From Acidobacteriota bacterium (GTDB lineage: Bacteria; Acidobacteriota; Thermoanaerobaculia; UBA5066), in NCBI GenBank assembly GCA_029781975.1, contig JAKOVQ010000046.1, positions 62,001 through 126,000 of the forward strand: DNA of 64,000 bases, read 5' to 3'. The first letter of the stretch is position 1. Each line of letters opens with the position of its first letter. The translations under genes and the position numbers were made by a program. Of this stretch, positions 12,273-34,203 are shown piece after piece. The notes under the pieces were generated by a model. That model was not told the origin of the DNA. It saw only the letters and a program-made list of their open reading frames with translations, and made no database searches.

Positions 12273-17730
<5,458 letters not shown>

Positions 17731-17734
<4 letters not shown>

Positions 17735-17820: not shown

Positions 17821-17887
17821 GGGAACCTCCTAGCTCGGTCTAGGAGTCATCAGCCCCGAGGGCGGTTCCGGCGAACTCCATCGCCAC
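17821..17887 (-). promoter_or_regulatory. Fluoride riboswitch A (crcB motif)
   Basis: The minus strand shows the aptamer hairpin GGCGATGGAGTTCGCC, the joiner GGAACCGCC, and the 3' strand GGCTGATGACTCCT. The loop GGAGT can pair with ACTCC as the pseudoknot. Directly after it CTCCTAG can instead pair with CTAGGAG, which is the ribosome-binding site of the following TTG. The two pairings share CTCC and exclude each other, so ligand binding should free the ribosome site. No T-tract follows, so control looks translational. It heads the five-gene enolase operon. Confidence 0.93.
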
Positions 17888-17899
17888 GTGCCGCTGGAG

Positions 17900-17985: not shown

Positions 17986-18015
17986 TTGACACCTTCGCGC
18001 GCCGGGAGCCACACT
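17986..18015 (+). promoter_or_regulatory. Promoter of fluoride unit B
   Basis: A perfect -35 box TTGACA (17986-17991) is followed after 18 bp by CACACT, a weak -10. The predicted transcript begins within a few bases of the aptamer of riboswitch B. It is back to back with the unit A promoter. Confidence 0.55.
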
Positions 18016-18023
18016 CCCCGTCG

Positions 18024-18090
18024 AGCGATGGAGTTCGCTCTGACCGCCGGCCGCCGGCTGATGACTCCTACCCGCCCGGACGAAGAGGAG
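18024..18090 (+). promoter_or_regulatory. Fluoride riboswitch B (crcB motif)
   Basis: AGCGATGGAGTTCGCT forms the first hairpin, followed by GACCGCC, a GCCGGC stem, and GCTGATGACTCCTAC. GGAGT in the loop pairs with ACTCC. The ribosome site AGAGGAG, 5 nt before the ATG at 18096, is complementary to CTCCT of the 3' strand, giving the same exclusive choice as in the other four copies. It controls the MutS-like pair. Confidence 0.92.
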
Positions 18091-18095
18091 CCGTC

Positions 18096-19712
18096 ATGCA
18101 CCGAGGCGTCGCCGAGATCCCCGAAGCGCCGTGCGGGGCGTCGCCCGCCGGCGAGGAGCGGGCGGAGGCCCGGGGCGACGCCCGCCTGGTGAGCGTCCTC
18201 TTCCCCGCGGGCCCCGGCCCTCTCCCCGAGGAGGTGCGCCAGGCGCCGGACTCCTTCCGGGACCTGGGCCTCGACCAGGTCGTGGCGGCCGTCACCGCCG
18301 GACGCGACGAGTACGACCTCGCGCCGTTCTTCTTCGCGCCGCTTCCGAGCCTCGACGCCGTGACCTGGCGCCAGGAGGTGATGCAGGAGCTCGACGAGCC
18401 GGCCGCGAGGCGGGCGGTCGGGACGTTCGCCGAGCGGATGCGGACGGTCCGGGGCCACCTCGAGACGGCCCGGAAGAGCTCCTACGACCTCGAGAGGCAG
18501 CGCTGGCACCTGGCGGCCGCCGAGCTCTACGCCGACGCGGCGGAGGGGCTCGAGCGGGAGCTCTCGGCCCTCGACCTCTCCTCCCGCGGCCTCCTGGCCT
18601 TCAGGACGGAGCTCGCGAGCCTCGTCCGCGGCGAGCCGTTCGCGACGCTCGCGGCCGAGTGCCGATCGACGGCGGCCGCGCTCGCCGCCGTCCGCTTCTG
18701 CGTCCTGATCCGCGACGGGACGGTCACCGTGAGCCCCTACGAGGGCCAGGGCGACTTCAGCGTCGCGGTCGCCGAGACGTTCGGCAAGTTCCGCAAGGCG
18801 GACGGGAAGAGCTACCTCCACACGTTCCGGGACGGCTGGGGGATGAACCACGTGGAGGCGCAGATCATGGAGCGGGCGGCCCTCCTCCACCCCGATGCCT
18901 TCGGCGCGCTGGCGCGGTTCTCCTCCGAGCACGCCGCCTTCGTCGACCCGCTCCTCGCCCGGTTCGACCGCGAGGTCCAGTTCTACGCCGCCTGGCTCGA
19001 CTACGCCGACCGCTTCCGCCGGGCGGGGCTTTCCTTCTGCATCCCGCGGGTCTCGTGCGAGAAGGAGGTCTCGGCCCGGGAGGCCTTCGACCTGGCGCTC
19101 GCCGGCCGCCTCGTCCGCGAGGGCCGCCCCGTCGTCTGCAACGACTTCTTCCTGCGCGGCGCCGAGCGGGTGCTCGTCGTCACCGGCCCGAACCAGGGCG
19201 GGAAGACGACCTTCGCCCGGACGTTCGGGCAGCTCCACCACCTCGCGAGCCTCGGCTGTCCCGTCCCGGGCCGCGAGGCGCGGCTGTTCCTGCCGGACGG
19301 GGTCTTCGCCCACTTCGGGCGTGAGGACGACCTCGCGACGCTGCGGGGGACGCTGGAGGACGACCTGACGCGGATCCACGAGATCCTCCGGCGGGCGACC
19401 TCCCGCAGCGTCTTCGTCGTCAACGAGATCTTCTCGTCGACCACGGCCGAGGACGCCCTCTTCCTCGGCCGGGAGGTGCTCGAGCGGATCCTGCGGCTCG
19501 ACGCCCTCGGGGTCTGCGTGACCTTCCTCGACGAGCTGGCGTCGCTGGGCGAGGGGACGGTGAGCATGGTCGCGGGCGTCGACCCGAACGACCCCGCGGC
19601 CCGGACGTTCCGGGTCGAGCGGCGGCCGCCCGACGGGCTCGCCTACGCCCTCGCGATCGCCGAGAAGCACCGGGTCACCCGGCGCTGGCTCGAGGAGAGG
19701 ATCCGGCCGTGA
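18096..19712 (+). CDS. MutS-like ATPase, first of a pair, in fluoride unit B
   Basis: A 538-residue protein with the MutS core and ATPase domains but without the N-terminal mismatch-reading domain. The helical lever region covers about 60-340. The P-loop TGPNQGGKTT (about 363-372) resembles the MutS TGPNMGGKST. The Walker B region reads FVVNEIFSSTT (about 438-448): Asn replaces the usual metal-binding Asp while the Glu is kept. MutS-related genes are known members of fluoride-riboswitch regulons. It overlaps the next gene by 4 bp; the pair may form a heterodimer. A role in DNA repair under fluoride is possible but unproven. Confidence 0.85.
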   Translation: MHRGVAEIPEAPCGASPAGEERAEARGDARLVSVLFPAGPGPLPEEVRQAPDSFRDLGLDQVVAAVTAGRDEYDLAPFFFAPLPSLDAVTWRQEVMQELDEPAARRAVGTFAERMRTVRGHLETARKSSYDLERQRWHLAAAELYADAAEGLERELSALDLSSRGLLAFRTELASLVRGEPFATLAAECRSTAAALAAVRFCVLIRDGTVTVSPYEGQGDFSVAVAETFGKFRKADGKSYLHTFRDGWGMNHVEAQIMERAALLHPDAFGALARFSSEHAAFVDPLLARFDREVQFYAAWLDYADRFRRAGLSFCIPRVSCEKEVSAREAFDLALAGRLVREGRPVVCNDFFLRGAERVLVVTGPNQGGKTTFARTFGQLHHLASLGCPVPGREARLFLPDGVFAHFGREDDLATLRGTLEDDLTRIHEILRRATSRSVFVVNEIFSSTTAEDALFLGREVLERILRLDALGVCVTFLDELASLGEGTVSMVAGVDPNDPAARTFRVERRPPDGLAYALAIAEKHRVTRRWLEERIRP

Positions 19713-21211
19713 GGGCGCTCCTGATGTTCCGCGACCGCGACTTCGACCCGGGCTCGCTCCCGTGGAACGCGGAGGCCCTCGAGCGCGACCTGGCGCTGGC
19801 GCCGCTCCTCGAGGCGATGGCGCGGGGCGACGAGCTCGTCCACGAGGTGGCCCGGACGGCGCTCCTCGACGGCTGCGCGAACGACCGGGAGACGGTCCTC
19901 CACCGGCAGGCGATCGCGCGGGACGCGCTCGCGAGCCCGGAGCTCGTCCGCGGGCTCTACGCGCTGACCGCGGAGGCGCTCGAGAGCAAGCGCGAGCACT
20001 CGTTCGGGGTCTTCGGGAACTTCCCGGCCTCGGTGCTCTACGGGGCGGGCGGGCTGATGAGGGCCTTCGTCGGCTTCCTGCGCCGGCTGCGCGACGCGAC
20101 GCGCGGTCCCGAGGCGGCCGGCGTCGCCTCCCCGGGGCTGAGGACCCTCTTCGCGATGCTCCAGCGCGAGCTGGACGACGCTTACCTCGAGGAGATCGAG
20201 GCGCGCCTCGCCAGCCTGAGGTTCCCCGACGGCACGCTGCTCAGCGCGGTCCCCGGGCCGGGCAACCTCGTGAGGGGCCACGTCCTCCACGACCGGCCGC
20301 GAGACGAGAGGGGCTGGCTGGCGCGGCTCCTCTCCCGGACGCCCCCGGGCCTCTCGTTCCGCCTGGCCGACCGGGACGAGGCGGGGGCGCGGGCCCTCGG
20401 GGAGATCCGGGACCGTGGCATCCACGTCGCCGCCGACACGCTCGCCCGCTCGGCCGACCACGTCGAGGGCTTCTTCCGGGCGCTCCGCACCGAGCTGGCC
20501 TTCTACGTCGGCTGCCTGAACCTCCACGAGGCGCTCTCCGGGCTGGGGCTCCCCACGGCCTTCCCCGACCCCTCCCCGGCGGGCGAGCGCCGGCTCCGCT
20601 TCCGCGTGCTCTTCGACCCCTGCCTCGCCCTCCAGAAGGGGGAACGGATCGTCGCGAACTCGGTGGACGCGGACGGGAGGAGCCTCGTCGTCGTCACGGG
20701 GGCCAACCAGGGGGGGAAGTCCGTCTTCCTGCGAAGCGTCGGCGTGGCCCAGCTGATGATGCAGGCGGGTACGTTCGTCGTCGCGGAGTCCTACGAAGGG
20801 GAGCTCGCCCCGGCCCTCGCCACCCACTACCGGCGCGAGGAGGACGCCGGGCTGAGGAGCGGCAAGCTCGACGAGGAGCTGGCCCGGATGAGCGAGGTCG
20901 CCGACCACCTCGCCCCGGACGCTCTGGTCCTCTTCAGCGAGTCGTTCGCGGCCACCAACGAGCGGGAGGGGTCCGAGATCGCCCGCCAGGTCGTCGCGGC
21001 CCTCCTCGCCCGGCGGGTGAAGGTCTTCTTCGTGACCCACCTCCACGACTTCGCGCGCGGTCTCCACTCGCGGGGCTCCGCCGACGCGCTCTTCCTGCGC
21101 GCCGAGCGGGAGGGGGACGGGACGAGGACGTTCCGGCTGGCCGAGGGGGCGCCGCTGGCGACGAGCCACGGCCGCGACCTCTTCGAGAGGATCTTCGGCG
21201 CGACCGCCTGA
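19709..21211 (+). CDS. MutS-like ATPase, second of a pair, in fluoride unit B
   Basis: A 500-residue relative of the preceding gene, also lacking the mismatch-recognition domain. The P-loop is TGANQGGKSVFL (about 330-341). The Walker B region reads LVLFSESFAATNEREG (about 404-419), with Ser in place of the canonical Asp and the catalytic Glu kept. Helical core about 20-320. It starts with ATG overlapping the previous TGA, so the two proteins are probably made in equal amounts. Both partners depart from the Asp of Walker B, which argues for a shared special mechanism and not decay. Its gene ends unit B; about 64 bp follow before the next promoter. Confidence 0.85.
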   Translation: MRALLMFRDRDFDPGSLPWNAEALERDLALAPLLEAMARGDELVHEVARTALLDGCANDRETVLHRQAIARDALASPELVRGLYALTAEALESKREHSFGVFGNFPASVLYGAGGLMRAFVGFLRRLRDATRGPEAAGVASPGLRTLFAMLQRELDDAYLEEIEARLASLRFPDGTLLSAVPGPGNLVRGHVLHDRPRDERGWLARLLSRTPPGLSFRLADRDEAGARALGEIRDRGIHVAADTLARSADHVEGFFRALRTELAFYVGCLNLHEALSGLGLPTAFPDPSPAGERRLRFRVLFDPCLALQKGERIVANSVDADGRSLVVVTGANQGGKSVFLRSVGVAQLMMQAGTFVVAESYEGELAPALATHYRREEDAGLRSGKLDEELARMSEVADHLAPDALVLFSESFAATNEREGSEIARQVVAALLARRVKVFFVTHLHDFARGLHSRGSADALFLRAEREGDGTRTFRLAEGAPLATSHGRDLFERIFGATA

Positions 21212-21275: not shown

Positions 21276-21304
21276 TTGACAGGCGCGCGGGCCCGATCCA
21301 GATT
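21276..21304 (+). promoter_or_regulatory. Promoter of fluoride unit C
   Basis: A perfect -35 box TTGACA is followed after 17 bp by CAGATT, a modest -10. Transcription would begin at about 21311, the first base of the aptamer. Confidence 0.55.
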
Positions 21305-21310
21305 GGAAAA

Positions 21311-21384
21311 GGGCGATGGAGTTCGCCGAAAGCGCTCCAGCCGGAGCTGATGACTCCTACGCGGGATGGAAGTCCCGAAAGGAG
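21311..21384 (+). promoter_or_regulatory. Fluoride riboswitch C (crcB motif)
   Basis: GGGCGATGGAGTTCGCC makes the first hairpin. GAAAGCG, a GCTCC/GGAGC stem and GCTGATGACTCCTAC follow. GGAGT pairs with ACTCC as pseudoknot. The competing stem is CTCCT with AGGAG, helped by an inner CGGGA/TCCCG stem. AAAGGAG is the ribosome site of the ATG at 21391. It controls the cfa-like gene and the HEAT-repeat gene. Confidence 0.93.
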
Positions 21385-21390
21385 CCGCTC

Positions 21391-22605
21391 ATGAGCGCAG
21401 GCGCACTTCACTCGTCGGCTGGTCCCGTGTCCGAAGCCGAAGCCGCCCCGTCCCTCCGCGAGGCTCCCCGCCCGAGCCCGTCCCGCGCGGGACGTCTCGA
21501 GACGTGGGTCGCCACGACCCTCGCCATCGCCGGGGTCGAGCTGGACGGCTCCGCCCCGCACGACATCCGCGTCCGCGACCCGCGCTTCTTCGCGGCGGTC
21601 GCCGGGCGCGGGTCGCTCGGGCTCGGGGAGAGCTACATGGCGGGCTGGTGGGAGTGCCCGCGGATCGACGAGCTGGTCTTCCGGCTCCTGCGCGCGGGCC
21701 TCCACCGGGAAGCGCGGCGCGGCTGGCGCGAGGCGGCCCGGACCTTCGCCGCCTTCGTCCTCGCGCCGGGGCGCAGGAGCCGCGCCTTCGAGATCGGGGA
21801 GCGGCACTACGACCTCGGCAACGACCTCTTCGAGCGGATGCTCGACCGGCGGATGGTCTACAGCTGCGCCTCCTGGCGCGCCGCGAAGACGCTGGACGCC
21901 GCCCAGGAGGCCAAGCTGGACCTCGTCTGCCGCAAGGTCGGGCTCCGGCCGGGGATGAGGGTCCTCGACATCGGGTGCGGCTGGGGCGGCTTCGTGAGGT
22001 TCGCGGCCGAGCGGTACGGCGTCCGCGCGCACGGGATCACGGTCTCCCGGCAGCAGCTGGAGGTCGCGCGCCGCCGCGCCGCCGGCTTCCCCGTGGAGGT
22101 CGAGCTCCTCGACTATCGCGCGCTCGGCGCGGCCACCTACGACGCGATCGTCTCGATCGGGATGTTCGAGCACGTCGGGCCGCGCAACCACGCCACCTTC
22201 CTCGAGGTCGTGAGGCGCTGCCTCGCGCCCGACGGCCTCTTCCTCCTCCACACGATCGGGGGCAGCGAGTCGACGACCACCGCGGATCCCTGGATCGAGC
22301 GCTACGTCTTCCCGAACAGCGTCATCCCCTCGCTCGCGCAGATCACCCGGGCCGCCGAGGGCCGGTTCGTCGTCGAGGACCTCCACTCCTTCGGCGCCGA
22401 CTACGACCGGACGCTCCTGGCGTGGAACGAGAACGTCGAGCGGCGGCGCTCCGAGCTGAAGGACCGCTACGACGAGCGGTTCTTCCGGATGTGGCGGTAC
22501 TACCTCCTCTCGTGCGCCGGCTCCTTCCGCGCCCGCCACAACCACCTCTGGCAGCTCGTCCTCTCGCCGCGCGGCCTCGTCGGCGGCTACGACGCCCCGA
22601 GGTGA
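21391..22605 (+). CDS. cfa: Cyclopropane-fatty-acyl-phospholipid synthase family methyltransferase
   Basis: A 404-residue SAM-dependent enzyme that would methylenate unsaturated membrane lipid chains, giving tighter and less proton-permeable membranes. The N-terminal lipid-contact domain covers about 30-140 (LGESYMAGWWE), then IGERHYDLGNDLFERML, the SAM site VLDIGCGWGGFVRFAAERYG (about 190-209), ITVSRQQLEVA, SIGMFEHVG and the C-terminal FRMWRYYLLSCAGSFRAR. Full family length. The ATG at 21391 is used by riboswitch C; the longer open frame reads through the aptamer. Membrane hardening against HF or acid is the likely sense of fluoride control, which is inference. Confidence 0.9.
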   Translation: MSAGALHSSAGPVSEAEAAPSLREAPRPSPSRAGRLETWVATTLAIAGVELDGSAPHDIRVRDPRFFAAVAGRGSLGLGESYMAGWWECPRIDELVFRLLRAGLHREARRGWREAARTFAAFVLAPGRRSRAFEIGERHYDLGNDLFERMLDRRMVYSCASWRAAKTLDAAQEAKLDLVCRKVGLRPGMRVLDIGCGWGGFVRFAAERYGVRAHGITVSRQQLEVARRRAAGFPVEVELLDYRALGAATYDAIVSIGMFEHVGPRNHATFLEVVRRCLAPDGLFLLHTIGGSESTTTADPWIERYVFPNSVIPSLAQITRAAEGRFVVEDLHSFGADYDRTLLAWNENVERRRSELKDRYDERFFRMWRYYLLSCAGSFRARHNHLWQLVLSPRGLVGGYDAPR

Positions 22606-23868: not shown

Positions 23869-25623
23869 TCACGCCTGGGCGAAGACCGCTGGCCGGAGGC
23901 TCCCTTCGCCGTCCCCAATCCCGCCGAGGGACGAGAGCGCCGTCTCGAGCCGCCCCCGCTGGACCGCGAGCCGGGCGAGCGCCTCCTCGATCGCGCGGAG
24001 CCCCTCCTCCCGCGTCCGGAGCCCCTCGGCGACCGCGGCCAGGACCTCCTCCCTGAGGGCCTCGAGCCGCGTCCGGACCTCGGCGTCGACGTGACGGGAG
24101 AGGGCGTCGAGCCAGTCCGTCAGGTGGCGGTCGACCTCGTAGAGGTTCAGGCGGAACCACTCGGAGGCGGTCCGGCGGGCCCGGCTGGCCGCGCGCGCCG
24201 CGACGGCCCGCCTGGGGAGGAGGGCGTCGACGAGCGGGACGACCCAGACCGAGGCGTCGAGGGCGAGCGTGGACTCCACGAACTCGAAGACCCCCGCGCC
24301 GAGCTCGACCCGGACCGGCTCCGGCTCGAGCTCCTTGATCTCGGTCCCGAACGCCGCGGCCGCCTCCGAGGCGACCCGCGCGACCAGCCGGTTCGCCTCG
24401 CTCGTCGCCCGGGCGACCATGGCGGTGCGGTGCCGCTCGAACTCCGCCACCGCCTCCCGCCGCCACGCCTCGACCCCGTCCGCCACGAGCCTCCGGGTGA
24501 TCTCCGACGCCTCCCTGCGCATCGCCTCCCGCGAGCGCCGGGGCGGCCGGTCGAGGCTCGTCCGGACGGCTTCCACCACCTGCTCCGTTCGGCGTCCCTC
24601 CAGCTCACGGCGCCGCTCCTGCCACGCGTCCCAGTCGACCGACGTGTCGGCGCGGAGCCGGGTCAGCACCGCGAGCGCGAGGTCCTCGACGTCGCGCATG
24701 GCGTTCCGGAAGCGCTCGACCCGTCCCTCCAGCTCGGCGATCGGCTGCGTGAGCGCGGCCCGCTCGATGTCGATCCCCTGGAGCAGGCGCGACGAGAGGT
24801 GGCGAACGGCCCGGCGCGCCGAGGCGCGCGCGAGGTCGCCCGCCGAGTCGCGGGCGAGGCCCCGGATCCACTCCCGCAGCGCGTCGACGCCGGGCTCGCT
24901 CCCGGTCTCGAGCGCGATCCTGGCGGAGGCGTGCGCCAGCGGCCCCGGGTCGCGGCCCAGAGCGCCGAGCAGCACCTCGCGGGTGAACGCCGCGGCCTTC
25001 TCGCGGGTCTGCTCGCGGACCCGGTCCGACTTGTTGAGGACGAAGCGGAGGCAGCCCGCGAGGGGAGCCACCTCGGTCACCAGGGCCAGCTCCTCGCCGG
25101 AGATCGGCGGGTCCGAGCCGAGCACGACGATCGCCACGTCGATCCGCGGCAGGAAGCGGCGGGTGGCCGCCGAGTTCGGGGCGAAGACGCTGCCGATGCC
25201 CGGGGTGTCGACCAGCCGCAGGCCGGGCGCGAGGAGCGGAGACGGCAGCTCGACGACGACGGCCTGCACGCCCTTGACGTTGCTGGGATTGCCCTCCTCG
25301 GAGACCCAGTCGGCGAGGCGCTCGACGCCGCCCGACTCCTCGCTGCCGTCGGCGTAGCAGACGCGCGCCGCCGGTCTCGGACCGTACTCGACGATCGTGA
25401 CCGTGCTGGTCAGCGGCACGACGTCGGCGGGGAGGAGCTCCGTCCCGAGGAGCGCGTTGACGAGCGTGCTCTTGCCCCGCTTGAACTGGCCGAGGACGGC
25501 GACGTTGAAGCGCCCGCTCGCGAGCGCGCGAGAGGCTTCGCGGGCCTCGGCGGCGATCGCCCCGTCGCCACGCGCGTTCGCGACGTCCGAGACGGCCCCG
25601 AGCGCCTCATCCTCTCGATACAC
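23869..25623 (-). CDS. Dynamin-like GTPase, last gene of fluoride unit D
   Basis: A 584-residue GTPase, clearly a paralogue of the first gene of this operon. G1 is GQFKRGKST (45-53), a Thr-rich switch follows (PLTSTVTIVEYG), G3 is VDTPGIGSVF (138-147), and G4 is LNKSD (196-200). Shared phrases are VSEEGNP, LPSPLLAPG and LGSDPPISGEELALV. The C-terminal two-thirds is long helix with a hydrophobic patch near ALDASVWVVPLVDALL (about 457-472), possibly a membrane paddle. The start is GTG at 25623, 29 bp after the stress-protein stop. Two related GTPases in one operon suggest a hetero-oligomer on the membrane. Confidence 0.82.
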   Translation of the reverse strand: MYREDEALGAVSDVANARGDGAIAAEAREASRALASGRFNVAVLGQFKRGKSTLVNALLGTELLPADVVPLTSTVTIVEYGPRPAARVCYADGSEESGGVERLADWVSEEGNPSNVKGVQAVVVELPSPLLAPGLRLVDTPGIGSVFAPNSAATRRFLPRIDVAIVVLGSDPPISGEELALVTEVAPLAGCLRFVLNKSDRVREQTREKAAAFTREVLLGALGRDPGPLAHASARIALETGSEPGVDALREWIRGLARDSAGDLARASARRAVRHLSSRLLQGIDIERAALTQPIAELEGRVERFRNAMRDVEDLALAVLTRLRADTSVDWDAWQERRRELEGRRTEQVVEAVRTSLDRPPRRSREAMRREASEITRRLVADGVEAWRREAVAEFERHRTAMVARATSEANRLVARVASEAAAAFGTEIKELEPEPVRVELGAGVFEFVESTLALDASVWVVPLVDALLPRRAVAARAASRARRTASEWFRLNLYEVDRHLTDWLDALSRHVDAEVRTRLEALREEVLAAVAEGLRTREEGLRAIEEALARLAVQRGRLETALSSLGGIGDGEGSLRPAVFAQA

Positions 25624-26080: not shown

Positions 26081-27286
26081 TCAGCGCGCCGCGGCGGCGG
26101 GCTCGCCGTCCGGGGCCCCCTCCTCCGGCTCGGGCTGGGCCGGGAGGAGGTGTCGAGGCAGGAAGAACGCGTTGCCGACCACGGTCGGGATCACGGCGCT
26201 GCCGATGACCGTCGCCACGATGTAGGAATACTGCGCCTGGTCGATGATGCCGTGGGAGAGGCCGAAGAGGGCGGAGATCGTCCCGAAGGTGAGGCCGGTC
26301 GACATCATCATCGTCGTGTAGAGGCTCTCCCGTCGGGCGTAGCCGAGCGCCCGGGCGGTGGGGAGCACGGCGGCGATCTTCGTCACCATCTTTCCAGCGA
26401 GGAGGGCGAGCCCGACGAGCGGCGCCGCGATCAGCGACGGGATCGAGACGAACGAGCCGGCCCGGATGAAGTAGAAGGGGGTGAGGAGGCCGAAGGTCAT
26501 CGTCCGGAGGCGCCGGATCAGGACGTGGTCCTTGCCGACGGTGCTCGCGAGGACCATGCCGATGAGGTAGGCGGGGAGGACCGCCTCGCTGTCCGCCCAG
26601 GCGGCGAGGGCCCCGAAGCCGAAGAGGAGGAAGAGGAGGTACTTCGCCTCGAGCTCCGAGACGCGACCCCCGTACTTCTTGAAGAAGCGCGGGGTGAGCC
26701 AGGGGAGGAGGGTGAAGAGGACGACGGACGTGACGGCGAAGACGAGGGTCCGGACGCTGAAGGGGGCGAAGATGAAACCGAGCGCCAGGACCGTGCCGAG
26801 GTCGTTGATGAAGCAGGCCGCGAGGATCGTCTTGCCGAACTCGGTCCGGTTCAGCCCGAACTCGAGCATGACGGCGTAGACGACCGCCACCGACGTCGTG
26901 GAGAGCGCGATCCCGACGAGCCAGGAGGCCCGCACGTTCCAGTGCAGGACGTAGTACGCGAGGGCCGTGCAGCCGAGGAACGGGGCGAAGAACGCGACGA
27001 GGCCGAGGCCCGAGGCCTCCCTCCACTTGGCGCGGAAGACGATGGGGTCGAGCTCGGCGCCCGCGAGGAAGGTCAGGACGATGGCGCCGGTCCCCGAGAG
27101 GAAGGTGACCCAGGGCGCCTTGGCGCCGAGCGCCTCGATCCCGAGGAAGGCTCCGATGACGAGCTGCGCGACGGTGCCGACGACGATCTCGGAGAGGGCC
27201 GTCGAGATCCGGAGCCAGATCGCGAGCAGCGTCGCGACGAGGGCCAGGCCGAGCCAGAGCGCCGCGAGCGCCCAGACCGAGGTCAC
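26081..27286 (-). CDS. Cation/proton antiporter (CPA2-like)
   Basis: A 401-residue membrane protein with about 11-12 helices, related to monovalent cation/H+ antiporters of the Na+/H+ exchanger type. Helix 5 carries the conserved acidic pair region FINDLGTVLALG (about 165-176), with Asn-Asp as in many CPA2 members, and the half-helix region ALSTTSVAVVYAVMLEFG. The GTG start overlaps the DUF190 stop (GTGA). Na+/H+ antiporters are known in fluoride regulons; HF entry acidifies the cell and Na+ is needed by the Fluc channel structure. The exchanged ion is not readable from sequence. Confidence 0.87.
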   Translation of the reverse strand: MTSVWALAALWLGLALVATLLAIWLRISTALSEIVVGTVAQLVIGAFLGIEALGAKAPWVTFLSGTGAIVLTFLAGAELDPIVFRAKWREASGLGLVAFFAPFLGCTALAYYVLHWNVRASWLVGIALSTTSVAVVYAVMLEFGLNRTEFGKTILAACFINDLGTVLALGFIFAPFSVRTLVFAVTSVVLFTLLPWLTPRFFKKYGGRVSELEAKYLLFLLFGFGALAAWADSEAVLPAYLIGMVLASTVGKDHVLIRRLRTMTFGLLTPFYFIRAGSFVSIPSLIAAPLVGLALLAGKMVTKIAAVLPTARALGYARRESLYTTMMMSTGLTFGTISALFGLSHGIIDQAQYSYIVATVIGSAVIPTVVGNAFFLPRHLLPAQPEPEEGAPDGEPAAAAR

Positions 27287-28038
27287 GGCATCGCCCCGGC
27301 GCCGGGCGCCGGCTCCGCCGCCGCCCCGGCGGCGTCGTGACCGACGTACTTGATCACGGTGACGTCGGAGATCGCGATGAGGCAGCCGCCGGTGACGATC
27401 GAGTCGAGGGCCGAGAGAAGCCTGTTGATCTTCTCCTCCTCGTCGATGATGCTGATCAGGATCGGGTCGTCGCTCGAGAGCGTGACCGCGTGGTGCTTGT
27501 GGATCCTCTTGTGGGCTCCGTAGCCGAGGATCCCCCGGTACACCGTCGCCCCGGCGATGTCGAGCTGGCGGGCGCGCTTGACGATCGTCTCGAAGAGCGG
27601 CTCGCCCTCCCACTTGTCGTTCTCGCCGATGTGGACGCGGAGCATCTTGGCCTTCCCGACGAGCCTCACGAGCGTCTCCTTCCCGGGCGCCGGCGTCCCG
27701 GCGTCCTTTCCGGCCGTGAACTTCACGATCTGGGTCTCCTGGATCTCCACGAGGCCGCGTTCGACGATGTCGTAGACGTCCGGCAGGACGCGGTCGATCG
27801 CCTCGGCGGTGTCGACCACCTCGATCCGCACCGGCAGGGGCATCGCGCCGTCGATCAGGTCGATGGACCGGATGGTGCCGCGCCCCGTGAATCCCGCGAT
27901 GGCGCGCGAGACGGTGGCTCCGGCGAGGCCGCGGTGGCGGAAGACCTCGAGGAGGGCGTTGTAGACGCTCCGGCCGTGCCACCGGTCGGCCTCGTTCACG
28001 GTGACGATGAGCTTCCGGGCGGGTCCGGCCTTCAGCAT
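27283..28038 (-). CDS. Tandem DUF190 protein
   Basis: A 251-residue protein with two DUF190 units, about 1-110 and 123-232. The units share the pattern RKLIVTVNEADRWHGRSVYNALLEVFRHRGLAG / MLRVHIGENDKWEGEPLFETIVKRARQLDIAG shown here only in outline: a basic strand, an E-x-D-x-W loop and a helix. DUF190 proteins are PII-like in fold and are repeatedly found next to crcB; their role is unknown. The double form is less common than single-domain DUF190. It lies 22 bp after crcB. A sensor or modulator of the channel or antiporter is plausible inference. Confidence 0.88.
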   Translation of the reverse strand: MLKAGPARKLIVTVNEADRWHGRSVYNALLEVFRHRGLAGATVSRAIAGFTGRGTIRSIDLIDGAMPLPVRIEVVDTAEAIDRVLPDVYDIVERGLVEIQETQIVKFTAGKDAGTPAPGKETLVRLVGKAKMLRVHIGENDKWEGEPLFETIVKRARQLDIAGATVYRGILGYGAHKRIHKHHAVTLSSDDPILISIIDEEEKINRLLSALDSIVTGGCLIAISDVTVIKYVGHDAAGAAAEPAPGAGAMP

Positions 28039-28060: not shown

Positions 28061-28429
28061 TCATCGCGCCACCCTCACGCCGAGGCGGACCGCGAGGAAC
28101 CCGGCGGTCACCGAGCCCACGACGTTGGCGAGCGCCCAGCCGCCGGCGCCCGATTCCGTGAGGCGCTCGGTCTCGTACTCGAAGGTCGAGAAGGTCGTGT
28201 AGGCGCCGACGAAGCCGGTGCCGACGAGGAGCCGGATCGCCGGGTCGAGCGTCGTCCGGTCGGCCGCCCAGGTGGAGAAGAAGCCGAGGACGAAGGAGCC
28301 GGTCACGTTGATGAGGAACGTCGCCAGGGGGAGGTCCCGGGTCCAGAAGCGTGAGACGGCGAGGGTGACGCCGTAGCGGGTCATCGCGCCGACGAAGCCC
28401 CCGCAGCCGACCGCGAAGAGCCTCCTCAT
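28061..28429 (-). CDS. crcB: Fluoride channel CrcB/Fluc
   Basis: A 122-residue protein with four membrane helices, the full length of a Fluc subunit, which works as an antiparallel dimer that exports fluoride. Diagnostic residues are visible: GCGGFVGAMTRYGV (8-21) with the conserved Arg, the pore Asn at 41 in INVTGSFVLGF, and the helix-break region GFVGAYTTFSTF (72-83) whose two Phe line the pore. The ATG overlaps the GTPase stop by 4 bp. It anchors the reading of this region as a fluoride regulon. Confidence 0.96.
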   Translation of the reverse strand: MRRLFAVGCGGFVGAMTRYGVTLAVSRFWTRDLPLATFLINVTGSFVLGFFSTWAADRTTLDPAIRLLVGTGFVGAYTTFSTFEYETERLTESGAGGWALANVVGSVTAGFLAVRLGVRVAR

Positions 28430-30165
28430 CGGGCCTGCTTCCTGAGCGCCGCGGCCGAGCGGCGGAGGGCCTCGAGGCGGGCGAGCTCGGCGCGGACGCT
28501 CTCCTCGCCCGCAGCCTTGCGGGAGCGGGCTCGCTCGAGCGCCCCCTTGGCCGATTCGAGGGCCTCGGAGAGCCGGCGGCGGATCTCGCCCTCGAGCTTC
28601 CTCCGGCTGTCGGAGACGCGGTGGGCGAGGTCGTCGAGGAGCCGCGAGCTGTTGGCGGCGAGGAGCCCTTCCAGGATCCCCACGGCGGCCTCCTCGACCG
28701 ATCGCCGGACCCTCTCGGCCGAGAGGACGCGGCTCGTCAGCCAGGCGAGCGGGTCGGGCGCGGACGCCAGGAGCTGGTCCGACACGTAGAACCGCGAGCG
28801 CTCGCGGAAGCCCGACTCCCCCTCGAGGGCCGGGGGGAGGGAGGCGAGCCCGGGATCGCCGGCCCGGAGGAAGCGCGCCAGGAAGTCGTTCGCGAGGTCG
28901 AGGAAGCGGTCGGCGACCGCGCGGTAGAGGCGCTCGGCCGCGGGCAGCTCCTTCTGGAGCCACTCCTCCGTTCGCGCCCGGGCGATTCCCCGGGCCGCGT
29001 CGATCGCCGCCTCCCGCGAGGGCTTGCCCGGAGCCGCGCGGACGACGGCGAGGAGCCGCTCGCGCGCGGGCGGGAAGACCTCGGCGAGGAAGCGGTCGCG
29101 GTCCGCCTCGAGCGCCCGCGAGAGCCGATCGACCTCCGCCTGGAGGAGGTAGCCGAGGTCGCCCAGGGCCCGCTCGGCCTCCGCGAGGCTGGCCGAGAGG
29201 TCCTCGATCCGCCGCTCCGACTCCTCGACGGGGCGGACCAGGGCGCCCCGCTGCTCCTCGATCTCGGCCAGGAGGCGATCGGCCAGCCGGCGGACCTCGC
29301 GCTGCTCGGACGCCCGGAGGAGGTCGGCCCCCGCCTCGTGCGCGAGGCGCTCGAGGGCGCGCTCGAGCGCGGGCCAGGCGCGCTCCGGGCCGCCTCCGGC
29401 GAGCCGCTCCGCCGCGCTGACCTCGAGGAGGGGGGGGATCGGGCGCCCGATCCGCTCCGCGAGGATCCGCTGGGCGAAGCGCGACGCCTCCTCCCGGTCG
29501 GCCTGCGAGAGGCGGTCGGACTTGTTGAGGACGAAGACCAGCTCGGGGACCTGGCGCGCCACGTCCGCCACGAGCGCGAGCTCGTCCCCAGAGATCGGCG
29601 GGTCGGCCCCGAGGACCACCAGCGCGGCGTCCACGTGGGGGACGAAGTCGCGCGTCGCCCGGCTGTTCCCCTCGAAGACCGAGCCGATGCCGGGGGTGTC
29701 GACGAGGCACATCCCGGAGGCGAGGAGCGGGCTGGGGACGAAGACCTCCGCGCCGACGACGCCGAGCCGGTTCTCCGGGTTCCGCTCCTCCGAAACGTAG
29801 TCGGTGAGCCGCTCCGGGGGAACCTCCCGCCAGCCCTCGGCCGCGAGGCGGACCCGGGCGGCCACCGCCTCCCCGTGGCGCAGGACCGTCACCACCGAGG
29901 TCACCGGGGTCACGCCGGAGGGGAGGAGCGGCCGGCCGACGAGGGCGTTGAGCAGCGTCGACTTGCCCCGCTTGAACTGGCCGACGCAGGCGACGAAGAA
30001 GCGTCCCCCCTCGATCCTTTCCTGCGCGGCCTCGGCCTCCGAGGCGATCTCCGGCGCCGAGAGCGCCTCGGCCAGCGTGGCGACGCCGGACAGGGGCGAT
30101 CCTCCCCCTTCCGCGCAGGGCGCGGCATCCCGTGGCTCGATCTCTCTCGCGGAGCTCCGGGCCAA
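28426..30165 (-). CDS. Dynamin-like GTPase, first gene of fluoride unit D
   Basis: A 579-residue GTPase. G1 is GQFKRGKSTL (62-71), G3 DTPGIG (156-161), G4 LNKSD (213-217); a region LGADPPISGDELALV is shared with the operon's last gene. C-terminal helices are charged and coiled-coil-like (about 280-340 and 500-575). The start is TTG at 30165, chosen because it lies 4 nt after the GTAGGAGGG site of riboswitch D and no ATG is placed better. It overlaps crcB by 4 bp, so channel and GTPase are translated together. Bacterial dynamin-like proteins repair or tether membranes; the fluoride link is new inference. Confidence 0.85.
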   Translation of the reverse strand: MARSSAREIEPRDAAPCAEGGGSPLSGVATLAEALSAPEIASEAEAAQERIEGGRFFVACVGQFKRGKSTLLNALVGRPLLPSGVTPVTSVVTVLRHGEAVAARVRLAAEGWREVPPERLTDYVSEERNPENRLGVVGAEVFVPSPLLASGMCLVDTPGIGSVFEGNSRATRDFVPHVDAALVVLGADPPISGDELALVADVARQVPELVFVLNKSDRLSQADREEASRFAQRILAERIGRPIPPLLEVSAAERLAGGGPERAWPALERALERLAHEAGADLLRASEQREVRRLADRLLAEIEEQRGALVRPVEESERRIEDLSASLAEAERALGDLGYLLQAEVDRLSRALEADRDRFLAEVFPPARERLLAVVRAAPGKPSREAAIDAARGIARARTEEWLQKELPAAERLYRAVADRFLDLANDFLARFLRAGDPGLASLPPALEGESGFRERSRFYVSDQLLASAPDPLAWLTSRVLSAERVRRSVEEAAVGILEGLLAANSSRLLDDLAHRVSDSRRKLEGEIRRRLSEALESAKGALERARSRKAAGEESVRAELARLEALRRSAAALRKQAR

Positions 30166-30169
30166 GTAA

Positions 30170-30229
30170 CCCTCCTACCGAAGTAGGAGTCATCAGCCCC
30201 GGGGGCGGTTCAGGCGGACTCCATCGCCC
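30170..30229 (-). promoter_or_regulatory. Fluoride riboswitch D (crcB motif), ahead of crcB operon
   Basis: The minus strand reads GGGCGATGGAGTCCGCC, then TGAACCGCC, a CCC/GGG stem and GGCTGATGACTCCTAC. The loop GGAGT pairs with ACTCC. The competing hairpin is CTCCTAC-TTCG-GTAGGAG, a perfect 7-bp stem with a UUCG tetraloop whose 3' arm is the ribosome site of the TTG at 30165. This is the cleanest example of the on/off choice among the five copies. Confidence 0.95.
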
Positions 30230-30240
30230 TCGCTCCGAAA

Positions 30241-30286: not shown

Positions 30287-30937
30287 CTACGGGACCTGCG
30301 GGAACGCCGCGGCGTAGTCCGCCTCCGCGCGGCGGACGACCTCCAGCGCCTCCTCGCGGTCGAAGACCTCCGCCACCGAGATGCGCCGCGTCATCGCGTC
30401 CGGCGGCTCCTTGTAGGTGAGGAAGTAGTGCCGGAGCCGCTCCAGGAGCCCGGCCGGCACGCCGTCCACGTCCGCGACGCCTCCGTACGCCGGGTCCGAT
30501 TCGAGGACGGCGATGATCTTGTCGTCCGCCGTCCCCCCGTCGATCGTCCGGATGCCGCCCACGGGCCGCACCCGGGCCAGGAAGGCCCCGCGGCGGATCC
30601 TCCTCTCGAAGAGGACGCAGACGTCGAGCGGATCGCCGTCCCCCACGAGCTCCGCGTGCCCCGTCCGCTCCGCGCTCCGGGAGGAGACGGACGGACCGCC
30701 GAGCGTCCGGGGGACGAGCCCGTAGAGCGTGGGGCAGCTGTTCGAGAAACGCTGCGGACGGTCGAGCCGAAGGTGCCCGGTCCGGGAGTCGAGCTCGTAC
30801 TTGACGGTGTCGCGCGGGACGAGCTCGATGAACGCGTTGAGCACCGTTCCGGGCTCGGCCCACGCCGGGATCCCGTGCCACGGGTGGACCTGGAGCAGCT
30901 GCCGGGCCTGCTGGACGAAGCTCCGAGCGTCGGTCAT
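30287..30937 (-). CDS. ppa: Inorganic pyrophosphatase (family I)
   Basis: A 216-residue soluble pyrophosphatase that hydrolyses PPi to phosphate in the cytoplasm. Active-site residues are present: Glu and Lys-x-Glu in FIELVPRDTVKYELD (36-50), the metal cluster DGDPLDV (100-106), ADDK (137-140) and TYK (174-176). Family I enzymes are among the most fluoride-sensitive known and appear behind fluoride riboswitches. It is the last gene of unit E, overlapping the metallophosphoesterase by 4 bp, and ends 57 bp before the aptamer of unit D on the same strand. Confidence 0.95.
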   Translation of the reverse strand: MTDARSFVQQARQLLQVHPWHGIPAWAEPGTVLNAFIELVPRDTVKYELDSRTGHLRLDRPQRFSNSCPTLYGLVPRTLGGPSVSSRSAERTGHAELVGDGDPLDVCVLFERRIRRGAFLARVRPVGGIRTIDGGTADDKIIAVLESDPAYGGVADVDGVPAGLLERLRHYFLTYKEPPDAMTRRISVAEVFDREEALEVVRRAEADYAAAFPQVP

Positions 30938-31668
30938 GCGGCTCCCCCCGAAGGCGAACCGGCGCCGGCCCCGCCGGACCGCAGGATGCCCGCCAGGCCC
31001 TGCACGATATCAGGGGCCAGCGTCTGCGCCCCGAGGGAGCGCACGGTCGCCTCCACGTCGTAGGAGGCGCGGCGAAGGACCGGTCTGCCGTCCTCGACCA
31101 CCGCGTAGGCCGCGCGCGGGTCGCCGTCGCGGGGCTGCCCGACGCTCCCCGGGTTCACGACGAGCAGCGTCCCGATCTTCAGAGCCATCGGGAGGTGGGT
31201 GTGGCCGACGAGGACGACGTCGGCGTCGACGCCCTCGACGGCGCGCTCCCAGGCGGGGCGCTCGTCGGGCCGGAGGTAGGTGAAGAGGGGGTCCTGCGGG
31301 GTGGCGTGGACGAGGAGGAATCGGACGCCGCCGATCGTCACCCGCGCCTCGAGCGGGAGCGTGCCCAGCCAGGCGACGTCTTCCGGCCCGAGCGCGCGCC
31401 GCGCGAGGTCCTGGGTCGCGTCCGAGAGGGGCTGGACGCTCGCGGCGCAGCGGCAGCGGATCCCGCGCGCCAGCGCGTCGTCGTGGTTGCCCCGGACCGT
31501 CGCGGCCGCGTTCGCCCGCGCCCAGGCGACGCAGGGGACGGGGTCCGGCCCGTAGTCGACGAGGTCGCCGAGGCAGAGGACGGCGTCCGGCTCCTCGGTC
31601 TCGGCCTCGGTCACGGCGCGAAGCGCCTCGTGGTTCGCGTGGACGTCGGAGACGACGAGGACTCGCAT
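30934..31668 (-). CDS. Metallophosphoesterase (YfcE/calcineurin-like)
   Basis: A 244-residue dinuclear-metal phosphoesterase. Metal ligands lie in SDVHANHEAL, LGDLVDYG, RGNHDDAL, LVHATP and VGHTHLP, followed by VNPGSVGQPRD. This matches the small YfcE-like phosphodiesterases. The natural substrate is unknown. It begins 1 bp after the stop of the previous gene and overlaps the pyrophosphatase by 4 bp, so it belongs to riboswitch unit E. Fluoride mimics the attacking water in this class, so it may be a fluoride target being replaced. Confidence 0.9.
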   Translation of the reverse strand: MRVLVVSDVHANHEALRAVTEAETEEPDAVLCLGDLVDYGPDPVPCVAWARANAAATVRGNHDDALARGIRCRCAASVQPLSDATQDLARRALGPEDVAWLGTLPLEARVTIGGVRFLLVHATPQDPLFTYLRPDERPAWERAVEGVDADVVLVGHTHLPMALKIGTLLVVNPGSVGQPRDGDPRAAYAVVEDGRPVLRRASYDVEATVRSLGAQTLAPDIVQGLAGILRSGGAGAGSPSGGAA

Positions 31669-31669
31669 C

Positions 31670-32125
31670 TCACACCTCCGTCTCGGAAGCGAGGATCTCC
31701 TCGGCGGCGAACCGGACGAGGAGGGGGACGTCGGACGAGTCGAACGCGCGCCAGTCGACCCGGGGGAGGGACGGGTGGCGGCGGAGGAGAGCGGCGAGCC
31801 CCCGGAGCGCCGCCGCGGCGAGGAACGGGTCCCGCGTCGCGCGGGCCCTCGAGAGGAGGGGTTCGTAGGCCTCCGGGCCGGCGACGGCTCCGAGGAGGAG
31901 GGCCGATCGCTCCCGCACCTCGGTGACGGGGTGGTCCAGCGCGGCGAGGAGCTTCTCCTCGTATCCGCGGACCGACAGCGACGCCAGCTCCGCGCCGCAC
32001 CGCGGGCAGACGGGGTCCGCGAGCCAGATCACCGCCCAGCAGCTCGGGCAGAACGCCTTGATCCCGGGGTCGTGGACCCTCTCGCCGTCCGGGCGGCGGG
32101 GCGCGTCCCCGTCGTAGCGCTTCAT
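31670..32125 (-). CDS. Small zinc-ribbon plus HEAT-repeat protein
   Basis: A 151-residue protein. A CPSC...CPRC zinc ribbon occupies about 26-43 (FCPSCWAVIWLADPVCPRCG), and the rest is two or three HEAT-like helical pairs, for example HPVTEVRERSALLLGAVAG. No catalytic site is seen. The ATG at 32125 overlaps the upstream stop. I do not recognise a named family. In unit E it sits between a Cys-containing protein and a phosphoesterase, so it could be an adaptor. Confidence 0.7.
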   Translation of the reverse strand: MKRYDGDAPRRPDGERVHDPGIKAFCPSCWAVIWLADPVCPRCGAELASLSVRGYEEKLLAALDHPVTEVRERSALLLGAVAGPEAYEPLLSRARATRDPFLAAAALRGLAALLRRHPSLPRVDWRAFDSSDVPLLVRFAAEEILASETEV

Positions 32126-32628
32126 TCGATCCTCAGGACGTAGGCCCGCGTCCCGCGGACCGAGGCGTACCTCACGAGGGCGGCGCGCAGGGCGAGCCGC
32201 TCCTCGCGAAGCGGGAGCCGCTCGCCCGACGCGACGCGTGCGAGGGCTCGGACGAGGTCCTCGACGGGATCCGCCCCCGCTCCCGGGTGCGCCGGGCAGG
32301 CGAGCCCGTGCTGCCAGCGCCGCGAGAGGGCCTCCTCCTCGGCCTCCCTCTCGGCGCGGCAGAGGAGACAGTCGGGCGACGGGGAGGCCGGGGCCCGGCT
32401 GCCTGACGGGATCGCCTCCCCGAGCCAGAGCGCCAGCTCGCGCGGCGCCGTGGCGTCCACCACCAGCGGCAGGTGCGCCCAGCAGACGACGGCGTCCCGC
32501 GCCGTGCCGTTCCCGTCCGAGACGAGCTGCCCGAACGACGCCACCGCCTCCACCAGCCGGCGGGCGACGTGCTGGCACGCCGGGCAGGCGTCCGGGACGG
32601 TCGCGGGATCGGGGGCGGGGCCGCTCAC
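32122..32628 (-). CDS. Unrecognised Cys-motif protein of fluoride unit E
   Basis: A 168-residue soluble protein with CPAC near the N-terminus (about 15-18), a single Cys in VVCWAHLPLV (about 48-57), CLLCRAEREAEEEAL (about 87-101) and a later CPAH (about 110-113). The spacing CxxC...C...H twice suggests metal binding, and the shape recalls DUF6062-like proteins, but I cannot confirm membership. The GTG start overlaps the ATPase stop and the stop overlaps the zinc-ribbon gene, so all are translated together. Confidence 0.65.
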   Translation of the reverse strand: MSGPAPDPATVPDACPACQHVARRLVEAVASFGQLVSDGNGTARDAVVCWAHLPLVVDATAPRELALWLGEAIPSGSRAPASPSPDCLLCRAEREAEEEALSRRWQHGLACPAHPGAGADPVEDLVRALARVASGERLPLREERLALRAALVRYASVRGTRAYVLRIE

Positions 32629-33296
32629 GGCCGCTCCTCCGCCGCGGCGGAGGTCCGGCGCGCGAGCGACCTGCGGGCCCTGGCGACCGCCTCGACCATC
32701 TCGAGCGGGTAGCCGCCCCGGCTCGTCGCCAGCATCCGGACGTGCTCGTCGGACCACCCGAGCCCGTGCCGCTCCGAGGCCTCGGTGAAGTACCGGACCG
32801 ACGCGTCGAGCGAGAGATGCCCCAGCTCGACCCAGACCGACGGGTAGAGCACGGCGCGCAGCCGCGTCACGTCCGGACCGGGGAGGAACGACTCCGCGAT
32901 CGCCACGACGCGCAGGGCCGGCACGGCGGCCAGGAACCGGAGGAGCTCCCACTTCGCCGTGGTGAGCCGGCCGATGTCGTCGAGGACGAGGACGGACGTG
33001 CCGGACGCGAGCCGTCCCTGGGAGATCCGGCGCCGCACCTCGCGGTAGCCGCCGGGCGCCGCCGCGCGTCCGCGCCGCGGCGCCACGAGCCCTTCGAGGA
33101 CGCGGAGGCAGACCGCCTTCGGCGTCTCGCCGAGGCTGACGAAGAGGAACCGCCACCCCGGCCCCGCCTCGGCGGCGAGCGCGCGCAGGAGAGACGTCCG
33201 GCCGATGCCGAAGGGTCCCCGGACGACGACGCTCCGCCCCTCGGCGAGCGCGCGCCGGACGGTGGCGAGCTCGTGCTCGCGTCCCGTCAGGGACAT
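32625..33296 (-). CDS. Small AAA/STAND-type ATPase, first gene of fluoride unit E
   Basis: A 223-residue P-loop protein like the ATPase core of ORC/STAND regulators: LTGREHELATVRRAL entry helix, P-loop GPFGIGRTS (27-35), Walker B VLVLDDIGR (102-110), and a helical lid in the last 80 residues. The P-loop has Arg where ATPases have the essential Lys, so it may bind nucleotide without fast hydrolysis. The ATG at 33296 has no ribosome site of its own; it lies inside a 20-codon leader ORF that starts right after riboswitch E. A partner might be the two Cys-containing proteins downstream. Confidence 0.72.
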   Translation of the reverse strand: MSLTGREHELATVRRALAEGRSVVVRGPFGIGRTSLLRALAAEAGPGWRFLFVSLGETPKAVCLRVLEGLVAPRRGRAAAPGGYREVRRRISQGRLASGTSVLVLDDIGRLTTAKWELLRFLAAVPALRVVAIAESFLPGPDVTRLRAVLYPSVWVELGHLSLDASVRYFTEASERHGLGWSDEHVRMLATSRGGYPLEMVEAVARARRSLARRTSAAAEERP

Positions 33297-33355: not shown

Positions 33356-33421
33356 GCTCCTACGAAACGTTTCGCAGGAGTCATCAGCCGTCATCGGCGG
33401 TTCGGGCGGACTCCATCGCCC
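33356..33421 (-). promoter_or_regulatory. Fluoride riboswitch E (crcB motif)
   Basis: The minus strand reads GGGCGATGGAGTCCGCC, then CGAACCGCC, a short GCC/GGC stem, and GGCTGATGACTCCT. GGAGT pairs with ACTCC. The alternative hairpin is ACTCCTGCGAAAC with GTTTCGTAGGAG, a long stem with one wobble, which buries the GTAGGAG ribosome site. It heads the ATPase-to-pyrophosphatase operon. Confidence 0.93.
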
Positions 33422-33433
33422 AGGACGGCCGCG

Positions 33434-33489: not shown

Positions 33490-34203
33490 ATGTCGCGAGG
33501 AAGGTCGAGAGCGTTGAACGCCTCGGAACGCGCGCGGCTTCTGCAGCGGACGCCGTTCGGCGAGCTCGGGGATGCCGCCTCGAGGCTCTCCCGCCTCTTC
33601 GTCGAGAGGCGCCTGCCGGCGGGGGCGATCGTGTTCTCGGAAGGGGAGCCGGGGGGCCCCTTCTTCCTCCTCGCCAGCGGCCGCCTGCGGGCCTACAGGA
33701 CTCTGGCGGGCGGCCGCGACATCACGGTCTTCGTCCTCCAGCCCGGCTCGTCCTTCGGCTTCCTCCCGCTCCTGGACGGCGGCCCGTTCCCCGTCTCCGT
33801 GGCGGCGATGGAGGCGTCGGTCGCGCTCGTCCTCGAGCGAGGGACCTTCCAGAGGTTCCTCCGGAGCGAGCCGGAGCTCGGCCCGCGCCTCCTCGAGTAC
33901 GTGGCGTCCCGCCTGCGCGCCTGCCTCGACCAGATCGGGTTGCTCGGTCAGCCGGGAGCCCACGCGCGCGCCGCGCACGGGCTCCTCGGCTTCGTCGCGC
34001 CCGGGGCCGCAGGAGGGGCCGGAGCCACCGTGACGCTCCCCTTCAGCCAGCAGGAGCTGGCGCGGACGCTTCACGTGACCCCCGAGAACCTCTCGCGGGC
34101 CCTGTCGAAGCTCCGGCGGGAGGGGCTCGTCGAGAGGCTCGGCCCCCGCCGGTTCCGCATCCCCTCCCTCGACGCGCTGCGCCGCGCCGCCGACGGCGAC
34201 TGA
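33490..34203 (+). CDS. Crp/Fnr-family transcription regulator
   Basis: A 237-residue regulator with an N-terminal cyclic-nucleotide-type beta barrel (VFSEGEPGGPFFLLASGRLRAY, outline only; about 45-66), a long dimer helix near 135-155 and a C-terminal winged helix FSQQELARTLHVTPENLSRALSKL (about 185-208, shortened). There are no clustered Cys residues, so it is not an FNR-type FeS sensor. Two starts are possible: ATG at 33490 with a GGGAG site, or TTG at 33514. It is divergent from fluoride unit E with about 70 bp between it and the aptamer; whether it controls any neighbour cannot be seen. Confidence 0.85.
   Translation: MSRGRSRALNASERARLLQRTPFGELGDAASRLSRLFVERRLPAGAIVFSEGEPGGPFFLLASGRLRAYRTLAGGRDITVFVLQPGSSFGFLPLLDGGPFPVSVAAMEASVALVLERGTFQRFLRSEPELGPRLLEYVASRLRACLDQIGLLGQPGAHARAAHGLLGFVAPGAAGGAGATVTLPFSQQELARTLHVTPENLSRALSKLRREGLVERLGPRRFRIPSLDALRRAADGD

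Follow-up and report, generated by a model that had tools for sequence, protein, structure and literature searches.

Accounts of fluoride resistance usually centre on export and on additional copies of the enzymes that fluoride inhibits. The regulon of the fluoride riboswitch (RF01734, the crcB RNA) includes, in published excerpts, CrcB/Fluc channels, CLC-F, Na+/H+ antiporters, pyrophosphatase, enolase, HAD phosphatases, mutS and formate hydrogen lyase (PMC11139923, PMC2864571). In the fluoride operon of Enterobacter cloacae FRM, ppaC-uspA-eno-gpmA-crcB-orf5249, knockout and complementation tie the genes to tolerance, as the excerpt of that report states (PMC5533749). Bacterial dynamin-like proteins such as DynA and LeoA/LeoBC have been linked, again in excerpts, to membrane fusion and surveillance (PMC8844932, PMC6104087). 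The locus analyzed here lies in a stretch of 64,000 nucleotides (the window) and uses the same RNA as the known regulon, with a pyrophosphatase in the unit of interest (the P1 unit) and CrcB, probable antiporter and MutS-like genes in the surrounding island. Like the E. cloacae operon, as far as its excerpt goes, this island is riboswitch-controlled and combines a pyrophosphatase with crcB. For the E. cloacae operon, in contrast, a single riboswitch is described, and the genes named there include none for an AAA+, zinc/HEAT or dynamin protein (PMC5533749); similarly, the regulon excerpts do not mention P1, P2, P3, the g15N domain or dynamin-like GTPases (PMC11139923, PMC2864571). Thus the fluoride regulon is known, and P1, P3, g15N and dynamin-like GTPases as its members go unmentioned in the excerpts of these three papers. 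We found no paper joining a fluoride riboswitch with a dynamin in a literature search that covered few subscription papers, so a prior mention may exist.

The P1 unit runs on the minus strand in the order riboswitch, P1, P2, P3, phosphoesterase, pyrophosphatase, all co-oriented:

33368-33429, minus strand: fluoride riboswitch aptamer RF01734 at the head of the unit (55.8 bits, gathering score 34, E 8.8e-13)
33357-33380, minus strand: hairpin CTCCTGCGAAACGTTTCGTAGGAG, a probable expression platform that by folding takes in the 3' strand of the aptamer pseudoknot
32625-33296, minus strand: P1, small AAA+ ATPase gene (223 aa, ATG start)
32122-32628, minus strand: P2 gene (168 aa, GTG start)
31670-32125, minus strand: P3, zinc ribbon and HEAT gene (151 aa, ATG start)
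30934-31668, minus strand: YfcE-type calcineurin-like phosphoesterase (Metallophos_2 97.8 bits; yfcE 74.3 bits, cut-off 56.25)
30287-30937, minus strand: inorganic pyrophosphatase, last gene of the unit (PF00719 128 bits; NF001886 266 bits, cut-off 247)

The original prediction, which had placed three open reading frames at 31670-33296 ahead of the phosphoesterase and pyrophosphatase, was borne out in both respects. Its finding did not include the riboswitch directly upstream, from which the P1 start codon lies ~71-72 bases downstream on the same strand. The 4-base overlaps that it gave to the three genes hold for P1/P2 and P2/P3, and one is seen also between phosphoesterase and pyrophosphatase; P3 and the phosphoesterase are separated by a 1-base gap. 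We take P1-P3, the phosphoesterase and the pyrophosphatase to be coding because of a GC content at codon position 3 of 0.94-0.96 (P1 0.96, P2 0.94, P3 0.95, with 0.57, 0.59 and 0.54 at position 2); the flanking genes are alike. Large plus-strand open reading frames across P1-P3 were judged to be antisense artefacts caused by the high GC. A gene read from its sequence as a Crp/Fnr-like regulator (33491-34203, plus strand) diverges from the P1 unit; behind it come an ArsR-like gene and then an RND efflux operon, named in the same way, and these genes likely stand outside the fluoride unit.

An Rfam covariance-model search found five fluoride riboswitches in the whole 5.37 Mb genome, all of them in the window and contained in an island of 18 kb. 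Besides the P1 unit, the island holds:

30177-30237, minus strand: second fluoride riboswitch, heading the next unit (55.6 bits)
28426-30165, minus strand: dynamin-like GTPase Dyn1 (Dynamin_N 85.4 bits)
28061-28432, minus strand: CrcB/Fluc fluoride channel (TIGR00494 101.3 bits, cut-off 80.45)
27283-28038, minus strand: double DUF190 protein (PF02641 195.6 bits, 2 stretches)
26081-27286, minus strand: probable cation/proton antiporter, named by sequence reading, with homologues behind riboswitches in relatives
23869-25623, minus strand: dynamin-like GTPase Dyn2 (Dynamin_N 81 bits)
21303-21366, plus strand: fluoride riboswitch before a cyclopropane fatty acid synthase-like gene (55.2 bits)
21391-22605: cyclopropane fatty acid synthase-like gene (CMAS 276.9 bits)
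18015-18077, plus strand: fluoride riboswitch before two MutS-like ATPases (44.6 bits)
18096-21211: two consecutive MutS-domain-V ATPases (MutS_V)
17834-17894, minus strand: fluoride riboswitch before g15 (49.9 bits)
15662-17734, minus strand: g15, a dynamin-like GTPase with an extra N-terminal domain, g15N (Dynamin_N 86.2 bits; g15N profile E 9e-15)

Dyn1, CrcB, the double DUF190 protein and the probable antiporter form the unit headed by the riboswitch at 30177-30237, and Dyn2 lies further down. In the window no dynamin gene adjoins P1-P3: Dyn1 belongs to the following unit and g15 is 15 kb off. Folding placed a hairpin behind every one of the five aptamers, in each case on an ACTCC strand, the strand that in this RNA family forms the pseudoknot of the aptamer. 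Since the hairpin uses this strand, the ligand-bound aptamer and the hairpin should be mutually exclusive. No U-tract was seen at the hairpins after the window aptamers; terminators overlapping crcB RNAs have been reported in the excerpted account, with which these hairpins agree, and a link of mutS with the fluoride riboswitch was reported there in 2010 (PMC2864571). Furthermore, the position of the CMAS-like gene directly behind a riboswitch suggests a change in membrane lipids as a response to fluoride.

P1 has an AAA+ core (AAA_16, 43 bits, cut-off 32.6), and its predicted structure (pLDDT 86) resembles Cdc6/Orc1 (2qby_A, Z 16.0, rmsd 4.1, 211 aligned), TnsC (7plh_A, Z 14.5, rmsd 3.4, 209 aligned) and MuB (8xvc_A, Z 14.2, rmsd 3.1, 200 aligned), so that P1 has its predicted fold in common with AAA+ initiator-type ATPases. 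It differs from them in the replacement of the Walker A lysine by arginine and in the C-terminal winged helix of Orc1/Cdc6, which is missing: the P1 model has no strand past residue 157 and ends at residue 223 after a helical part. As modelled, P1 is a minimal AAA+ protein with an Orc1/Cdc6-TnsC-like fold and no winged helix. The P-loop GPFGIGRT(S), with arginine for lysine as first noted, proved to be a property of the family: all seven members read GxxGxGRT, six of them GxFGxGRT and the seventh (L078) GHVGVGRT, and none has the consensus GxxxxGK[ST]. An arginine in place of the Walker A lysine usually leaves nucleotide binding intact and severely impairs hydrolysis; the RuvB K64R structure 1in6 is among the structural matches of the P1 model. 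One could imagine P1 as a nucleotide-bound switch of the ORC/TnsC/STAND type that senses ADP with MgFx or AlFx and acts by protein contact, the arginine being its adaptation. The nearness of the fold to Cdc6/Orc1 and TnsC would suit such a sensor, as would the second Walker B position, which in the family is D or N and not E, and the arginine itself, constant in the seven members where second-tier AAA/STAND matches have lysine wherever the P-loop is readable. We consider it improbable, however, as the argument is purely chemical and lost hydrolysis explains the arginine more simply. PADLOC gave a weak mad8/PDC-S01 match for P1.

We found P1 in seven genomes (the window genome, G119, G142, G377, G081, G083 and G093). 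In 396 genomes of the phylum, the P1 profile recovered G119 (2e-59), G142 (1e-44) and G377 (1e-22), followed by a gap to 1e-7; in 148 genomes of the class it recovered G081, G083 and G093, with the next match at 5.5e-10. Weaker matches (E 5e-10 to 1e-5) were kept out of the counts; they are mostly large frames, with lysine P-loops where checked and readable (G043 was not checked). A scan of a genome collection with two short peptide patterns returned three P1 loci, which by their coordinates are G081, G083 and G093, and missed the P1 genes of L090-L092. Three of the P1 carriers bear the name Acidobacteria in public records. Plasmids gave no match to P1 or P3. The gene lies inside a riboswitch unit in six of the seven genomes, including all four of the 148 class genomes with a family-level match, at a distance behind the aptamer of +72 bases in the window, +1097 in G081, +1003 in G083, +1097 in G093, +2184 in G119 and +1464 in G142. 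RF01734 is present in all seven P1 genomes versus 25 of 100 relatives; in the remaining genome, G377, there is no riboswitch at the gene and RF01734 occurs elsewhere. We estimate that, given genomes of ~3-5 Mb that hold 1-5 aptamers each, chance would put a gene on the same strand within 2.5 kb behind an aptamer in <1% of cases, and the association of P1 with the riboswitch is therefore not due to chance. The immediate neighbor is also recurrent: a dynamin-like GTPase gene adjoins P1 in five of the six other genomes (L037, L040, L042, L090, L092), G377 being among those with such a neighbor, and homologues of g15 are found adjoining P1. At L091 (G142), enolase precedes P1, and the dynamin belongs to a divergent unit.

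P3 contains CPSC...CPRC followed by HEAT repeats, as the original prediction of a zinc-ribbon/HEAT protein had it. The four cysteines (C26, C29, C40, C43) are invariant in all seven family sequences. Pfam scores for P3 itself are below cut-off (DZR_2 26.1 bits, cut-off 27; HEAT_2 25.8 bits, just below 27.7), that of the homologue at L120 is above (HEAT_2, 39.6 bits), and profile A7 matches alphaRep chains (7e-48). Read from its sequence, P3 is a predicted zinc ribbon of two CxxC knuckles with HEAT repeats. It occurs in eight genomes (window, G104, G132, G390, G397, G026 (396-genome search), G081, G083), omitting weaker matches of E 3e-6 to 8e-5 and one in G167 (8e-9) that covers the HEAT part only. 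In seven of the eight, the window included, P3 is inside a riboswitch unit, and in G081, G083, G390 and G397 the match starts 19-35 bases after the aptamer; in G026 there is no riboswitch at P3, and riboswitches are on other contigs. The gene after P3 in G390 and G397 encodes a ~140-residue protein, and ~140-residue proteins precede P3 in G104 and G132, where CrcB, DUF190 and a dynamin-like gene follow. These arrangements read as aptamer, P3 (27-35 bases on), g15N at L122 and L123, and as g15N-P3-CrcB-DUF190-dynamin at L120 and L121, so that P3 adjoins the ~140-residue g15N domain in four genomes.

This domain of ~140 residues occurs in fluoride units either free-standing or fused as the N-terminus of dynamin-like GTPases:

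g15N: L122:7429-7848; L123:9146-9574; L120:4883-5918; L121:4741-5205; L091:7155-7595; and the N-terminus of window 15662-17734

A profile built only from free-standing g15N proteins (including one from L091) matched the N-termini of the P1-adjacent dynamin-like GTPases and of window g15 with E 4e-10 to 2e-18; no covering Pfam family (4 proteins) or NCBIfam family (2 proteins) was found. Our main argument follows from this match: P1 is found beside fused g15N and P3 beside free g15N, and P1 and P3 would therefore both belong to a dynamin branch. The partner GTPases resemble the bacterial dynamin-like proteins DynA and LeoA/LeoBC, as partially described (PMC8844932, PMC6104087), in having Dynamin_N and weak LeoA/LeoBC similarity, the latter found by PADLOC; they differ from those descriptions in being under fluoride riboswitches and, for the g15 type, in the extra N-terminal domain with no Pfam family. 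We examined 53 aptamers, consisting of 42 of 43 from relatives (G018 and G023 among them being just below the Rfam cut-off) and 11 from the P1/P3 genomes; the set omits G049 (23.9 bits, below cut-off) and a second G104 aptamer that lies outside the fetched stretch. By our own count, the first gene behind the 42 riboswitches of the relatives' set is most commonly a dynamin-like GTPase (14; 12 of 37 when the window is left out), compared with 6 for CrcB and 6 for antiporters, and a dynamin-like GTPase is a later gene behind 4 more. An MFS transporter gene is first behind a fluoride riboswitch at L039:9679-10932, L041:3533-4765 and L120:5887-7131.

P2 had been described as a CxxC/CxxC protein. 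The cysteine pairs CPAC and CLLC are indeed there, but they alternate with CWAH and CPAH, giving the order CPAC, CWAH, CLLC, CPAH (CPxC / CxxH / CxxCRxER / CxxH). P2 has no Pfam or NCBIfam match of note and a poor predicted structure (pLDDT 49). A search of 100 relatives returned only P2 itself and two weak matches with in-frame stops, and a three-row profile run against the 396 phylum genomes returned only P2 and a weak match in G003, which is a DUF6062 protein; the G003 genome has no fluoride riboswitch. A unit of riboswitch and MFS transporter in G081 and G083 encodes a P2-like protein (L039, L041) whose motif order is that of P2; a regular expression for CxxC-CxxH-CxxC-CxxH, made post hoc, hit 3 of 3,906 open reading frames, namely P2 and these two. 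The same order is found in DUF6062 (PF19538, gathering score 27), against which L039 scores 24.3 and L041 19.3, both below the cut-off, and which leaves P2 itself unmatched at E up to 10. Aligning the P2-like pair with P2 by hhalign gave a probability of 10% over 19 columns, and a profile of P2-like and DUF6062 proteins did not recover P2 at E up to 10. As these statistics lend homology no support, we regard the L039 and L041 proteins as unproven analogues; with no established homologue, P2 takes its place in any shared mechanism from the operon alone. The same literature search, with its small share of subscription papers, found no paper on DUF6062.

The three genes do not travel together. 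Among the loci read, the window genome alone has P1, P2 and P3 in one unit. Of the 12 genomes carrying P1 or P3, 3 carry both (G000, G081, G083), and away from the window the two genes belong to separate transcription units. An obligate P1-P2-P3 complex thus failed this test. The original prediction named scattering of the genes in relatives as the outcome that would speak against it; they do separate, but P1 (6 of 7 genomes) and P3 (7 of 8) remain under fluoride riboswitches. What links them is then a shared regulon and a shared neighbor, the dynamin-like GTPase or its N-terminal domain, and not an obligate trio. This weakens the proposal that the three act together as a regulatory or chaperone complex, and a shared fluoride regulon is supported; the statement that none of the three is a known fluoride gene stands, as P1-P3 are unnamed, and they belong with fluoride genes. 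A more specific form of the complex, in which P1-P2-P3 would serve as chaperone or metal-delivery machinery for a fluoride-inhibited phosphoesterase and pyrophosphatase, draws on the tight operon that has precisely these two enzymes behind it, on a plausible chaperone make-up of AAA+, zinc-binding and HEAT parts, and on L091, where the enolase ahead of P1 is also fluoride-inhibited. The restriction of the trio to the window argues against it, as does the finding that a match to the window pyrophosphatase lies behind only 1 of the 53 riboswitches, the window's own, and we judge it unlikely.

Membership of P1-P3 in the fluoride regulon is, as a prediction from genomic context, close to certain. 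They could still be passengers, general stress genes that came together behind a fluoride riboswitch and serve no particular purpose there. Their sparse and uneven occurrence (for P1, 4 of the 148 class genomes) and the orphan status of P2 would agree with this. Passengers would not, however, be expected to keep the riboswitch context across separate families, as the P1 and P3 homologues do at 29-42% identity, and we give this explanation little credence. The recurrence of relatives of P1 and P3 behind the riboswitch beside membrane-shaping GTPases suggests a branch of fluoride defence that has not been described. We give an even chance to the reading in which P1, P2 and P3 serve as accessory proteins in a dynamin or membrane-protection branch induced by fluoride. 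Fluoride would enter through the membrane as HF, which is known to cross it (PMC11139923, excerpt), and the riboswitch would switch the unit on. The pyrophosphatase would restore a fluoride-inhibited step; P1, with its arginine Walker A, may bind ATP and hydrolyse it poorly; P1, P3 (as HEAT scaffold with zinc knuckle) and perhaps P2 might regulate or assemble the dynamin-like GTPases and g15N, which in turn may remodel or repair the cell membrane. Membrane protection appears to be the simplest common purpose because of the membrane roles of dynamins, the passage of HF across the membrane and the presence of a lipid enzyme under the same switch. More tentatively, and with the balance against it, we propose an acidobacterial riboswitch-induced membrane machine in which g15N dynamins, P1, P3, perhaps P2, and cyclopropane lipids limit HF entry or mend membranes.

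Riboswitches report their own ligand, and here they mark unnamed proteins together with dynamin-like GTPases as belonging to the fluoride response. Riboswitch control also offers a direct handle, in which fluoride would bring about induction, on the roles of bacterial dynamins and their companions, which are otherwise hard to test. In addition, at L040:1864-2955 and L037:2188-3279 (genus g20) we observed a gene for a 363-residue protein without a Pfam match that is first behind the riboswitch and directly before P1.
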